Positions 24,843-37,716 of a stretch of DNA of 64,000 bases are shown here, piece by piece. Both the position numbers and the translations under genes were made by a program. Source of the DNA: Calonectria ilicicola (lineage: Eukaryota; Ascomycota; Sordariomycetes; Hypocreales; Nectriaceae); the NCBI GenBank assembly GCA_020809705.1, contig CP085827.1, positions 1,922,001 through 1,986,000 of the forward strand, given 5' to 3'. The stretch's first letter is position 1; every line of letters begins with the position of its first letter. Below the pieces are notes generated by a model. It was not told the origin of the DNA. It did not search any database and saw only the letters and a list, made by a program, of their open reading frames with translations.

Positions 24843-27800
24843 ATGATAGACTCAACCGATAGTCCCGTCAAGCAGCAGCTTGTCGACAAGCTGCCGAAGC
24901 GCTTTCGCGGTATCAAATTCGGCATCCAGTAAGAGCCCATTGTCTCGCTTGTAGTCGCGTCGCATCGCGCCACACCTTCTTGCTAACCATTGCTTTTTTT
25001 CCTCCTCGCACAGGTCGAACCAGGACATCGCGAACCAGGCTGTCGTGGAAGTTTCCAACCGACTGCTCTACAACATCGAAAATAACCGCGCTCCTTACCA
25101 CAATGGACCCCTTGATTCGCAACTGGTGAGCCATCCATTACATATCACCTAATCATTCGCGCCCTTCCGAATGCTAATCCAATGCCTCTCTCCAGGGCAC
25201 CTCCAGCAAAATGGCACCTTGTGCCACTTGCCAGGAACCGCTGAAGAATTGCCATGGTCACTTTGGCTATGTCAGGCTGCCGCTTCCGGCCTTTCATGTT
25301 GGATATCTGCGCTTCATTATGTCTATTTTGCAAGAAATTTGCAAGGTATGTACCATGACGCAGTTCCATATTTAGACCTAGATATTGACTAGCATGTGCG
25401 ACAGGATTGCGGTCATGTGCTACTTGAGGAGCCTGATCGACAGAGTTATCTTAAAGAACTTCGACGACCACACCTAGACAACCTGCGCCGCACGCAAATT
25501 TGCAAGAGGATCAACGAACAATGCCGTAAGGTGAGAAATTGTCAGTACTGTGGCGCCGTCAACGGCCAAATTCGCAAGATTGGCGTTCTCAAGCTTGTGC
25601 ACGATAAATTTTCTTTTTTCAACAAGTCCACCTCTGCGAAGAAGGTTCCGCCTGAGAGCAAGGTCAAGTTCGATGCGTCTTTTATCGAGGCTAGCCGCGA
25701 GAATCCTGAGCTCAACAAGCATTTGCGCAAGGCTATGGAAGATTTGAACCCATTGCGCGTTCTAAATCTTTTCAAAACCATTAGCCCGTCGGATTGCGAG
25801 CTGCTCGGTTTGGATCCAGCTGAGGGAAGACCTGAGATGTTTATCTGGCAGTTTGTTCCGGCCCCGCCAGTATGTATCCGACCCTCTATCGCTCAAGACA
25901 ACGCCAGCAACGAAGACGATTTGACAACAAAACTCGCGGACATTGTATGGGTCAGTGGTATGATTCGTTCAGCCCTACAAAAGGGCTCTTCCATCCAGAC
26001 CATTATGGAACAGTGGGAGTATCTTCAGACTCAAATTGCCATGTATGTCAACAGCGACGTTCCCGGTCTCCAACAGCCTGGTTTTGGAAAGAGCACAAGA
26101 GGGTTCTGCCAACGACTGAAGGGAAAACAGGGTCGATTCCGTGGTAATCTTTCCGGAAAGCGTGTGGATTTCTCAGGTCGTACTGTCATTTCCCCAGACC
26201 CTAATTTGGGTGTCGATCAAGTCGCCGTTCCCCAGCTTGTTGCCAAGAACCTCACCTACCCCGAAAGAGTCCAGCGACATAATATCGAAAAACTACGTCA
26301 GTGTATTAGAAATGGCCCTAAAGTCTGGCCCGGTGCCAATACACTCATCGTCAAAAAAGATGATGGTGAATACAAGCAAGATCTCAAGTTTGGCAATAGA
26401 GACATGATCGCACGCGACCTTCACTTTGGAGATATTGTCGAGCGTCATCTCGAGGATGGGGATATTGTGCTCTTTAACCGTCAGCCTTCGCTTCACAGAT
26501 TGAGTATCATGAGCCATCTTGCCAAGGTTCGCCCTTGGAGAACTTTCCGACTTAACGAATGTGTTTGCAACCCTTATAATGCTGATTTTGACGGAGACGA
26601 AATGAATTTGCACGTTCCACAGACCGAGGAAGCTCGTGCTGAAGCCATCAACCTAATGGGAGTCAAGCACAATCTTTCAACACCAAAGAATGGTGAACCT
26701 ATTATTGCAGCGACTCAGGATTTCATTACGGCTGCATACCTTTTTAGTAGCAAAGATCGGTTCTTTGACCGAAAGACATTTACCTATCTTTGCACACACA
26801 TGTTGGAAATCGATGTTCCCCTGGATCTCCCTCCCCCAGCTATTATTGCACCTAAGGCGCTTTGGACAGGCAAACAATTGTTTAGCATCATGATTCGACC
26901 AAACAAGAAGTCACCCGTCAAGATCAACTTGGACGCCAAGTGCAAGACTTACAAATCACGCGCAGGTGTGTTCCCTGATATGAGCGCCGACGATGCCTGG
27001 CTCGTTATTCGCAATTCCGAAGTCATGTGTGGTCTCATGGACAAGAGCACGGTTGGGGCAGGAAAGAAGGACTCGGTGTTCTATGTGCTTCTCCGTGATT
27101 TTGGACCTGATGAAACTGTGAAGGTCATGAACCGATTGGCAAGGTTATGCGCCAGATCTCTCACCAACCGAGGCTTCTCTATTGGTGTGGGCGACGTCTT
27201 CCCGTCTGATGCTCTGACCGCAGAAAAGGAGAATCTCGTGGCAACCGCATACCGAAAGTGTGATGACCTCATCGAAAAGTTCAAGGCCGGCAAGCTTGAA
27301 AAGGCTCCGGGTTGTAATATGGAGCAGACTTTGGAAAACTCAATCTCTGGTATTCTCAGTAAAGTTCGACAACAGGCCGGTGAATATTGTGTGGAAACTC
27401 TTAGTCGAAACAACGCTCCGCTCATCATGGCCCGATCCGGTTCAAAGGGTTCAGACATTAACGTAGCTCAGATGGTCGCTCTGGTCGGCCAACAGATTAT
27501 TGGTGGCCAGCGAGTTCCTGATGGATTCCAGGATCGAAGTCTGCCGCACTTCCACAAGAACGCTCGTCAGCCTCCTTCGAAGGGTTTCGTGAAGAACAGT
27601 TTCTATACTGGCCTATTCCCTACTGAATTTTTGTTCCACGCTATCTCCGGTCGAGAAGGTCTGGTCGATACAGCTGTCAAAACTGCTGAGACTGGTTACA
27701 TGTCACGAAGATTGATCAAAGCTTTAGAAGATCTCTCTACTCAGTACGATTACACGGTTCGAACCTCTGGTGGTACTGTCGTTCAGTTCCAATATGGTGC

Positions 27801-29397
27801 CGACAACTTGGATCCCTTGGATATGGAAGGCTCTAGCGGCCCAGTCAACTTCCAGCGAACGTGGACGCATGCTGAGAGCCTTACTTGGGACAACGAGGAG
27901 ATTTCATTAACTCCCAACGAAGTAAGGGCTTTCTGCGACTCTATGCTTGACACCGAGCGCAAGAAGTTCCCACGCAAGGGCTTGGTGCACGGTGAAGCGA
28001 TTGATTACGAAGACAAGAGCGATTATGCAATTGATGAGCACGAGGGTGCACGAAAGTTTTTAAGGGAGATTGAGGAATATGTCTACAACTTGGCTAGCCG
28101 AATGGAGAGGATTCGAAAGCTCGCTGGCATTGAAGGCGATAAGATTGTCAAGTCAATCGGCCAAGATCATGCGGACAGAACAGCCAAGGTATCGGCAACT
28201 ACGCTGAGGCTATTTATCCGATACAGTCTTGAGAAGTATAAGAAGGCCCATGTGGAGCCCGGCCATTCTGTTGGAGCTATCGGAGCCCAATCCATCGGTG
28301 AGCCTGGAACCCAGATGACTCTCAAGACTTTCCATTTTGCTGGTGTCGCCGGTATGAGTATCACACAGGGTGTTCCTCGAATCAAGGAGATCATCAACGC
28401 CTCCAAGCTGATCAGTACTCCCGTCATCACTTGCCCACTTCTTAATAATGAACAAATCGAGGCTGCCAAGGTTGTCAAGGCCCGTATCGAAAAGGCGTAC
28501 ATCTCAGACGTCCTCAGCTTTGTTGAGGATGAATGGCGCATGCAGCACAGCAACGTTGTTTTGCAAATCGACACCAACGCTCTTGCCAACATGCACTTGG
28601 GCATTGGTCTCACGGACATTGCTCAGGCCATTTGCATGCAAAAGAAGTTCAAAGTCCAGCCTCAAGACATCGAAATCAACGGAGATCAGATTATTGTTCG
28701 TGTTAGAGACATCACTGAAACGACAACGAGCAGATCTACAAAGAAGGCTGCTGAAGAATCTGGCGATCTCCTGCTCCGAGCCAATTTCCTCCATCGAGTC
28801 CTTCCAACCGTGCCTATTTCGGGTTATCCAGAAGCTACCCGTGCTCTCATTGAGACTTCAGAGGAGAGCACTCACCGAGTCTTGGTGGAAGGATATGGTC
28901 TACGAGCCTGCATGACAACAGAGGGCGTGATAGGCACAAAGGCTCGTTCAAACAGTGTGATGGAATGCAATGAGGTGCTCGGAATTGAGGCTGCCAGAAC
29001 TACCATTGCCAACGAGATCAATGATGTCATGGGATACATGGGTATCGATTTCCGACACATGGAACTTTTGGCTGATGTCATGACATTCAAGGGTGAGGTT
29101 CTCGGTATCACCCGATTTGGTCTTTCGAAGATGCGAGACAGCGTGTTGCATCTGGCTTCATTTGAGAAGACCCCAGATCACTTGTTCGCAGCGGCAGCAG
29201 GTATGAAGGCCGATAGAATTGAGGGTGTGAGCGAAGGTATCATCATGGGACAGACCATGACAGTTGGAACTGGTGCATTCCAGGTCGTGCGACGACTGGG
29301 AATTCAGCCAGACAATCTGCGTCAAAAGCCAACTTTGTTTGAGGATGCTTGGAAGTCTGAAGTGGCAAGGAAAAAGAAGGGCGCGCAGACAGCATAA
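24843..29397 (+). CDS. RNA polymerase III largest subunit (Rpc1/Rpo31)
   Basis: Catalytic subunit of RNA polymerase III, which makes tRNA, 5S and U6 RNA. Exons 24843-24928, 25014-25125, 25196-25345 and 25405-29397 give 1446 aa, the usual length. The first exon reads MIDSTDSPVKQQLVDKLPKR. The clamp zinc site has C75, C78, C85 and H88 (CATCQEPLKNCHGH). A second cysteine set is present (C118, C149, C156, C162, C165). RGNLSGKRVDFSGRTVISPD and NRQPSLHR lie ahead of the active-site loop NADFDGDEMNLH with the three metal-binding Asp at 510, 512 and 514. The bridge-helix/trigger-loop region shows GHSVGAIGAQSIGEPGTQMT. The Pol III type is shown by the Rpc1-like N terminus and the lack of a heptad C-terminal domain. 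Confidence 0.97.
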
Positions 29398-36719: not shown

Positions 36720-37225
36720 ATTGGTTACAAACTAGCATTTACGAATATACCACTGCACACGTCCAAGACGCACCAAGAGAGGAATCTCCAATCCAAGTGC
36801 TGTCAACTTCAATCATAACCAGAGTTCCCATACGTCACATCTTGGAGATACTCAGACCATTAAAATCTGTGCCGGTAAGTCAATTAGCAAATACCAAACT
36901 AAACAAACATCCAATCTTGCTTTTCCTTCCGCAGAAGTGAGCAAAGAAAAAAATCAGTTAGGACTGAGCTACGACCGAGTCAATGATAGCCCAATTTATA
37001 TTCAAACCACAGTCACGATCTTTTTCTGGGAAGAAATTCTTGTGGAGAGAGCTGTGGAGCTCAACATTGCATTAAGCAGTCAGAGAGTATTGAAGGCTCG
37101 AATCTGAAATCTGTGGAGCCGGCCGCAAACTCAGCCTCTGCCATCACACCAAAGCAGCCTTGAGGTCCTAAAAGAGGGCATCTTGACGACAGGGCGGTAA
37201 TGGATGCAGTCAAAAAGATAGTCCT
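36720..37225. other. 3' flank of 5-oxoprolinase up to the tRNA cluster
   Basis: No coding signal. The right end holds the T5 terminator of the first tRNA gene (listed separately). Confidence 0.5.
37212..37216 (-). terminator. Pol III T5 terminator, tRNA copy 1
   Basis: On the minus strand five T follow the tRNA 3' end after 9 nt. Four or more T is the normal Pol III stop. Confidence 0.75.
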
Positions 37226-37352
37226 TGCGGTTTATGTGGATCGAACACATGACCTTCAGATCTTCAGTCTGACGCTCTCTGTCAGTGAAGGTTAGTATCG
37301 TATTTCGGATGTGGGTGTTCAGAACAACATACCCCAACTGAGCTAAACCCGC
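37226..37352 (-). tRNA. tRNA-Phe(GAA) with an mRNA-type intron in the D-loop
   Basis: Without the 54-nt insertion at 37279-37332 this is an exact 73-nt tRNA: 5' GCGGGTTTAGCTCAG, anticodon arm CAGACTGAAGATCTG with anticodon GAA, and T-arm ATGTG-TTCGATC-CACAT. It has no intron at the usual site after position 37, unlike the two copies beside it. Its T-stem differs from theirs by a paired change (G-C to A-T), which keeps the stem. The A box (TAGCTCAGTTGG) and B box (GTTCGATCC) are both intact and a T5 stop follows, so Pol III could transcribe it. A functional tRNA needs removal of the insert. It could instead be a decayed copy. Confidence 0.88.
37279..37332 (-). other. 54-nt spliceosomal-type intron within the tRNA
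   Basis: On the minus strand the insert starts GTATGT, has a perfect TACTAAC branch box and ends CACTGACAG, so it has donor, branch point and acceptor in the tRNA sense. It sits between G20 and A21 of the D-loop (TTGGG|AGAGC). Its length matches the mRNA introns of this window (43-80 nt). The exact joint can slide by one base without changing the product. It does not resemble the 20-nt tRNA intron of copies 2 and 3. Confidence 0.85.
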
Positions 37353-37441: not shown

Positions 37442-37534
37442 TGCGGTTTGTGTGGATCGAACACACGACCTTCAGATATCACTTTCCCGAAGTTTGACTT
37501 CAGTCTGACGCTCTCCCAACTGAGCTAAACCCGC
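37442..37534 (-). tRNA. tRNA-Phe(GAA), canonical 20-nt intron
   Basis: 73-nt mature tRNA with a 20-nt intron at 37478-37497 placed after the base next to the anticodon (ACTGAAG|intron|ATCTGAAGG), the normal eukaryotic site. Cloverleaf: acceptor GCGGGTT with AAACCGC (one G-A mismatch at 5-68, shared by all three copies), D-arm GCTCAGTTGGGAGAGC, T-arm GTGTG-TTCGATC-CACAC. The intron contains TTCGGGAAA-type bases able to pair with the anticodon region. Confidence 0.97.
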
Positions 37535-37623: not shown

Positions 37624-37716
37624 TGCGGTTTGTGTGGATCGAACACACGACCTTCAGATATCGAATTCCCGAAGTTTAACTTCAGTCTGACGCTCTCCCA
37701 ACTGAGCTAAACCCGC
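37624..37716 (-). tRNA. tRNA-Phe(GAA), canonical 20-nt intron
   Basis: Identical in its mature part to copy 2. The 20-nt intron at 37660-37679 differs from that of copy 2 at a few bases. A and B boxes are intact. Spacing to copy 2 is 89 bp, and the flanks are not similar, so this is an old rather than a fresh tandem duplication. Confidence 0.97.

Follow-up and report, generated by a model that had tools for sequence, protein, structure and literature searches.

A tRNA-Phe(GAA) gene of Calonectria ilicicola carries in its D-loop a 54-nt insert that, to judge from its sequence, is most probably a U2-type spliceosomal intron removed from a Pol III transcript, and one of eleven such inserts found in the tRNA genes of this genome. 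The gene lies in the window, the stretch of 64,000 nt of contig CP085827.1 from which the original prediction was made; the genome searched comprises 69.9 Mb in 12 contigs. In its 5′ splice site, branch site, 3′ splice site and length the insert agrees with U2-type introns. A tRNA in need of the spliceosome had been proposed from the window alone. This is now the best explanation of the sequences, strengthened by eleven interrupted tRNA genes, representing four isoacceptors and four insert positions, and by the introns in both U6 loci found.

The window gene and the tRNA-Phe family

The coordinates of the gene, its parts and the related loci are collected in Table 1. The original prediction, that a minus-strand tRNA-Phe(GAA) is split between G20 and A21 by 54 nt of the form GTATGT...TACTAAC...CAG, was exact in its coordinates. 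When the 54 nt are taken out, a 73-nt tRNA remains that ARAGORN names tRNA-Phe(gaa), and its restored D-arm is that of the ten ordinary copies in the genome. Position numbers for this and all other inserts were counted on the cloverleaf by us; the A box corresponds to tRNA positions 8–19 and the B box to positions 52–62 (PMC3978253). Because G is the last base of exon 1 as well as of the insert, the boundary can slide by 1 nt (by 2 nt in tRNA-Cys). By alignment alone two or three registers are allowed, with GT...AG among them. The window gene is missed by ARAGORN and by Rfam at its gathering score, which call only the two neighbours. A permissive Rfam scan scores it at 22.8 bits, short of the gathering score of 29, and takes the 3′ end of the insert as a false D-arm.

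Table 1. Locations of the window tRNA-Phe gene, its parts, and other loci discussed in the text (plain ranges are window positions).
Feature	Location	Strand	Description
tRNA-Phe(GAA) gene with D-loop insert	37226..37352	minus	127 nt; no classical anticodon-loop intron
Exon 1, acceptor 5′ strand and D-arm to G20	37333..37352	minus	20 nt; ends TTGGG
Insert, read as a probable U2-type spliceosomal intron	37279..37332	minus	54 nt; site empty in 10/12 tRNA-Phe loci
Putative 5′ splice site	37327..37332	minus	GTATGT
Putative branch site	37291..37297	minus	TACTAAC; branch A 13 nt before insert end
Putative 3′ splice site	37279..37281	minus	CAG
Exon 2, A21 to discriminator	37226..37278	minus	53 nt; starts AGAGC; anticodon GAA; T-stem ATGTG/CACAT
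A box	37334..37345	minus	TAGCTCAGTTGG; intact in exon 1
B box	37238..37247	minus	TGTTCGATCC; intact in exon 2
Predicted Pol III terminator	37212..37216	minus	T5 run 3′ of the gene
Neighbour tRNA-Phe(GAA), ordinary	37442..37534	minus	20-nt classical intron; empty D-loop site
Neighbour tRNA-Phe(GAA), ordinary	37624..37716	minus	20-nt classical intron; empty D-loop site
RPC1 gene	24929-29397	plus	Pol III largest subunit
Second insert-bearing tRNA-Phe gene	C3:1557568-1557710		55-nt insert GTAAGT...TCTAACC...TAG
tRNA-Arg(UCG) gene (L115)	C8:3569310-3569480		12-nt classical intron and 53-nt T-stem insert; site CCAG/GTTCGAC
tRNA-Cys(GCA) gene (L035)	C1:804013-804085		Diverged, insert-free
L113	C1:4134730-4134920		Read as tRNA-Asp(GUC)
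U6 snRNA locus (L078)	C1:6580508-6580615		mRNA-type intron, 55 nt
U6 snRNA locus (L079)	C3:884181-884349		mRNA-type intron, 58 nt

A T-arm pattern allowing up to 3 mismatches finds twelve tRNA-Phe loci. Ten of these have a classical intron of 19–20 nt after position 37 and an uninterrupted D-loop (TTGGG/AGAGC); the other two lack the classical intron and carry a D-loop insert at the same site. In both window neighbours the 20-nt intron follows position 37 and the D-loop is uninterrupted, which bears out the claim that the window insert is unlike theirs. The exons of the two insert-bearing genes are identical at 71/73 positions, and both differences belong to one compensated T-stem pair. The copy-specific T-stem that had been described is borne out as well, ATGTG/CACAT in the window copy standing against GTGTG/CACAC in the 11 others. 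The bodies of the two inserts match at 18/36 aligned columns (50%, where shuffled bodies average 47%), and GTAWGT, CTAAC and AG are conserved between them despite this divergence.

Inserts in other tRNA genes and in U6

The genome was surveyed for similar genes with patterns of A-box/B-box spacing alone, splice signals being no part of the query. Four patterns combined an A box TAGC, TGGC, TAGT or TGGT with a B box 72–102 nt away, and a fifth combined TAGC with a spacing of 103–133 nt. They gave 24, 40, 12, 39 and 18 matches (133 in total), and reversed-pattern controls gave 31, 25, 49, 50 and 46. The survey was not exhaustive, and most chance matches were judged by eye from 80 letters, tRNA-like ones from fetched sequence. 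Eleven tRNA genes carry inserts of the kind described here: two for Phe, five for Cys(GCA), three for Val(UAC) and one for Arg(UCG). The longer spacing (TAGC A box only) and the TAGT and TGGT A boxes added no further insert of this kind by eye. Outside this genome, searches of viral_contigs for the Cys, Phe and Val arrangements and of genome_contigs for that of Cys, both collections of non-fungal scope, yielded no match. The same survey returned four Leu(CAA)-like genes (one fetched and so named, three from printed letters) and two Arg(UCU) genes, all with extra length at the anticodon loop, and its remaining matches look like chance or hold an ordinary tRNA. One further locus, L113, is read by us as tRNA-Asp(GUC) and by ARAGORN as Tyr (gta). 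Its AT-rich insert of about 57 nt lies at the anticodon loop without GT..AG signals, and may be a long classical intron, an insertion or the mark of a dead copy.

The eleven inserts lie between 20 and 21 in Phe, between 24 and 25 in Cys, after 20a in Val and in the T-stem in Arg; none is found after position 37. Joining the exons at the sequence level restores a tRNA in the insert-bearing genes. ARAGORN gives the expected anticodon for 10/11 spliced forms (Val L075 is read as ttt) and for 0/11 unspliced forms. The features of Pol III-type tRNA genes are present, with A box and B box in place and a T-run of 5 to 9 directly behind all eleven genes.

The tRNA-Cys(GCA) family comprises eight loci, five with the insert (L054, L060, L066, L068 and L070) and three without it. 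The insert site is GAG/CGAG. Two of the three insert-free genes are, letter for letter, the spliced form of L054, L060 and L070, which is to say of 3/5 interrupted genes. The Cys exons are identical at 68–72 of 72 positions, whereas the insert bodies agree at only 51–73%. A compensated T-stem change is found in L066, and the same pair is present in the insert-free L035. The latter gene has diverged, with one extra D-arm base (GGTATGAGC) and an anticodon stem that is changed yet paired. We also observed that the five Cys inserts, although they have diverged elsewhere, all keep an unchanged TGTCTC in their middle.

In the case of tRNA-Val(UAC), all three loci found by a search with the 3′ half, within 3 mismatches, carry the insert (L075, L076 and L077), at the site GGTT/AAGGC. 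An uninterrupted stretch from D-arm to anticodon was not found within 3 mismatches, a search that would overlook a UAC gene whose sequence is very different. Given this, and given that a tRNA-Val with inosine-34 may also read GUA, tRNA-Val(UAC) made from these genes need not be indispensable. The first half of the three Val inserts, GTAAGTAGCTC..AGCTCCACC, is nearly invariant, and in predicted folds its AGCT..AGCT forms a small hairpin beside the 5′ splice site.

Beside the new insert, the Val(UAC) genes and the interrupted Arg(UCG) gene also have a classical intron, of 7 and 12 nt respectively. For tRNA-Arg(UCG) we found one gene with the insert and at least two complete genes without it. The last G of the Arg insert preserves the B-box reading GGTTCGACTCC in the DNA. 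We set the length of the insert at 53 nt because the T-stem is then restored; ARAGORN accepts 49 nt as well as 53 nt.

The U6 snRNA genes found in this fungus are interrupted too. Two loci reach the Rfam cut-off, among 47 of 4404 candidates scored, and both contain an insert, although at different sites: one before ACAGAGA (55 nt), the other after ACAGAGAAGAT (58 nt). Each insert has the form GTAAGT...ACTAAC...CAG and holds a B-box sequence, GGTTCGANTCC. Since an uninterrupted U6 should score higher and none was seen, the fungus presumably must splice U6, and thus a Pol III transcript. With introns in both of the U6 loci found, it is very likely that this organism splices Pol III transcripts. 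Taken together, the 13 inserts in Pol III genes (11 in tRNA genes, 2 in U6) all measure 53–58 nt and have 11–13 nt from the branch A to the end.

Splice signals and alternative readings

All eleven tRNA inserts begin GTNNGY, contain a TAAY branch site, end in NAG and are 53–57 nt long. Their 5′ splice sites fit GTRNGY in 8/11 cases, the other three being GTTAGT. The branch site is CTAAC or CTAAT in 9/11 and TTAAC in 2/11, with the branch A 11–13 nt from the end, and the 3′ splice sites are CAG (6), TAG (2) and AAG (3). Fusarium mRNA introns have a median length of 57 nt (range 42–529), a CTRAY branch site in 91% and TTRAY in about 4%, and RAG at about 6% of 3′ sites, so that AAG is the rarer form (PMC5677156). 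The signal pattern is present in 10/10 inserts tested and in 1–6 per 200,000 shuffles of each; the Arg insert was outside this test. Copies of the same isoacceptor are not independent, but with four different sites the evidence amounts to about four separate cases. Inserts of different isoacceptors, one each from Phe, Cys and Val, align at 55–56% (34/61, 32/57 and 35/62), little above the mean of 47% for shuffled bodies. T-runs of 5 or more are absent inside all eleven inserts. This absence is consistent with the stopping of Pol III at T-runs, the sample of mRNA introns being too small for comparison. A TTTT in one Cys insert might bring Pol III to a stop.

The original prediction had equated the length and signals of the Phe insert with those of the mRNA introns of the window. 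This holds roughly; the length of 54 nt falls just under the range of those introns. The four window mRNA introns measure 56–85 nt, with GTAAGA, GTAAGT or GTGAGC at the 5′ end, CTAAC or CTAAT branch sites, YAG ends and 13–27 nt from branch to end. Two of them are from NDC80 and one from RPC1, bridged by homologous proteins, and the fourth is an RPC1 candidate from a pattern scan. The window NDC80 shares 83% identity with its counterpart in Mariannaea sp. PMI_226, and RPC1 shares 81% with the protein of Ilyonectria destructans, which places the fungus within or close to the Nectriaceae. The pattern-based scan of the window yielded 18 candidates, compared with 11–15 for control patterns, and so cannot serve as a clean set. 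Intron finders based on hexamers or on codon bias picked up no usable signal in the window. Junctions of an MFS transporter gene were dropped from the set, since its homologues disagree (49, 109 and 49 nt). The RPC1 gene and the tRNA cluster are about 8 kb apart, which is probably coincidence.

The inserts could instead be ectopic introns of the endonuclease type, cut at a bulge-helix-bulge and then ligated, as in the red alga Cyanidioschyzon merolae, in which D-loop and T-loop introns are known (PMC3978253). The insert junctions were tested for this motif, with bulges on opposite strands, and the Arg insert and nine classical Phe introns were included. The Arg insert forms a full bulge-helix-bulge, with 4/4 central and 4/4 flanking pairs, and 0/1000 shuffles are as good. 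For this gene an endonuclease intron is therefore a live reading, although spliceosomal signals are found at the usual distances too, and its insert is ambiguous between the two kinds. The ten D-arm inserts, in contrast, are at shuffle level, with 182 to 922 of 1000 shuffles as good (391 for the window copy). The power of the test is doubtful, because it also fails to distinguish the nine classical Phe introns, which 133 to 519 of 1000 shuffles equal. The endonuclease model also gives no reason for the occurrence of GTNNGY, of TAAY 11–13 nt from the end and of AG in 11/11 inserts, and as an account of the whole set it is very unlikely.

If the insert-bearing genes were dead or untranscribed copies, their inserts would be fixed and never removed. 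Insert-free genes do exist for Phe (10), Cys (3) and Arg(UCG) (at least 2), and the insert-bearing Phe genes, 2/12 of that family, could be silent. Such decay is at odds with tRNA-Val(UAC), for which every locus found carries the insert, and with the Cys genes, whose exons have been kept far more closely than the insert bodies. The promoter boxes and terminal T-runs have likewise been kept, and the T-stem changes are compensated. Those in the window Phe gene and in Cys L066 speak for selection on the folded tRNA, although both are single events and the pair of L066 also occurs in the insert-free L035. We consider it quite improbable that the insert-bearing genes are dead or untranscribed.

A recent introner-like insertion into a tRNA gene, which the original prediction had offered as a second possibility, gains no support from the Phe insert. 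In tRNA-Cys the same AG closes both exon 1 and the insert, as duplication of a short target would produce. However, a whole-genome DNA search with the window Phe gene and its insert, the sole insert searched, in which only the best candidates were scored and common words were skipped, found the insert elsewhere only in the second Phe gene. Furthermore, the Phe and Cys insert bodies are strongly diverged between paralogues, a divergence that indicates age. This reading is very improbable. It is barely plausible that the tRNA-like exons belong to Pol II transcripts (long noncoding RNAs or untranslated regions) and are spliced within these, not as tRNAs: splicing is normally coupled to Pol II, but the genes have the promoters and terminators of Pol III, the two exons together form one tRNA, and the same arrangement occurs in U6 of the same genome.

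Proposed processing and relation to known introns

For the preferred reading, spliceosomal removal, we propose the following route. Transcription by Pol III, driven by the internal promoter, would run across the insert and end at the T-run. The U1 and U2 snRNPs would recognise the insert by its GTNNGY start and its YTAAY branch site. The two-step lariat reaction would then join the tRNA halves while the RNA is still in the nucleus, and only afterwards could the D- or T-arm fold. Trimming of the ends would come after removal of the mRNA-type insert. In Val(UAC), and in Arg(UCG) if its insert is of the same kind, the classical intron of 7 or 12 nt would then be cut by tRNA endonuclease and the halves joined by ligase, so that precursors of Val(UAC), and possibly of Arg(UCG), would need both splicing machineries. 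Since no insert-free tRNA-Val(UAC) gene was found, this isoacceptor would depend wholly on the spliceosome route.

The inserts resemble the classical nuclear tRNA intron, found at position 37/38 and removed by endonuclease and ligase, in that they interrupt a tRNA gene, but they differ from it in position, length and signals. Spliceosomal introns are known in fungal nuclear rRNA genes, and these too are mRNA-type introns in the gene of a structural RNA; their host, however, is a Pol I transcript and not a tRNA. Like the U6 intron of Schizosaccharomyces pombe, which holds a B box, the inserts would be mRNA-type introns inside Pol III-transcribed genes. The U6 host is a component of the spliceosome, with the intron near its catalytic bases, whereas the hosts described here are tRNAs. 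The U6 introns of the present genome also contain a B box, while none of the Phe, Cys and Val inserts provides a promoter box. In S. pombe the U6 intron is of the mRNA type and is spliced out during maturation (PMC10484740).

The ectopic introns and permuted tRNAs of C. merolae, and the ectopic introns of nucleomorphs, interrupt the D-arm or T-arm, sometimes with further disruption (PMC3978253). The Arg insert can form the bulge-helix-bulge of introns of the C. merolae type; the ten D-arm inserts, in a test of doubtful power, show this motif no more than expected by chance. The C. merolae-type introns are cut by endonuclease, and the part of the source that treats them makes no mention of GT, branch and AG signals (PMC3978253). 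Among the papers listed in searches of the open PMC literature, judged by titles and abstract openings and with subscription journals and preprints outside the search, no description of spliceosomal introns in tRNA genes was found. Thus, spliceosomal introns in Pol III genes were already known, and tRNA genes as their hosts are new as far as open PMC searches reach.

It is probable that this fungus regularly uses its spliceosome to process tRNAs, obtaining in this way part of the Phe, Cys and Arg(UCG) supply and all of the Val(UAC) supply, with some precursors spliced twice by unrelated machineries. In the same proposal, the introns of Pol III genes (tRNA and U6) form a class of their own with a fixed distance of 11–13 nt from branch to end. 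Similar genes may be absent from other genome annotations, given that ARAGORN and the Rfam gathering score miss the window gene.

The textbook division assigns tRNA introns to the tRNA endonuclease and mRNA introns to the spliceosome, and the sequences suggest that this line has been crossed repeatedly, at several tRNA positions. If this is true, U6 is not the only Pol III transcript on which spliceosomes assemble, and the supply of tRNAs for Phe, Cys, Val and Arg codons would be tied to splicing. C. ilicicola could then serve as a natural system in which to study how RNA genes acquire introns.
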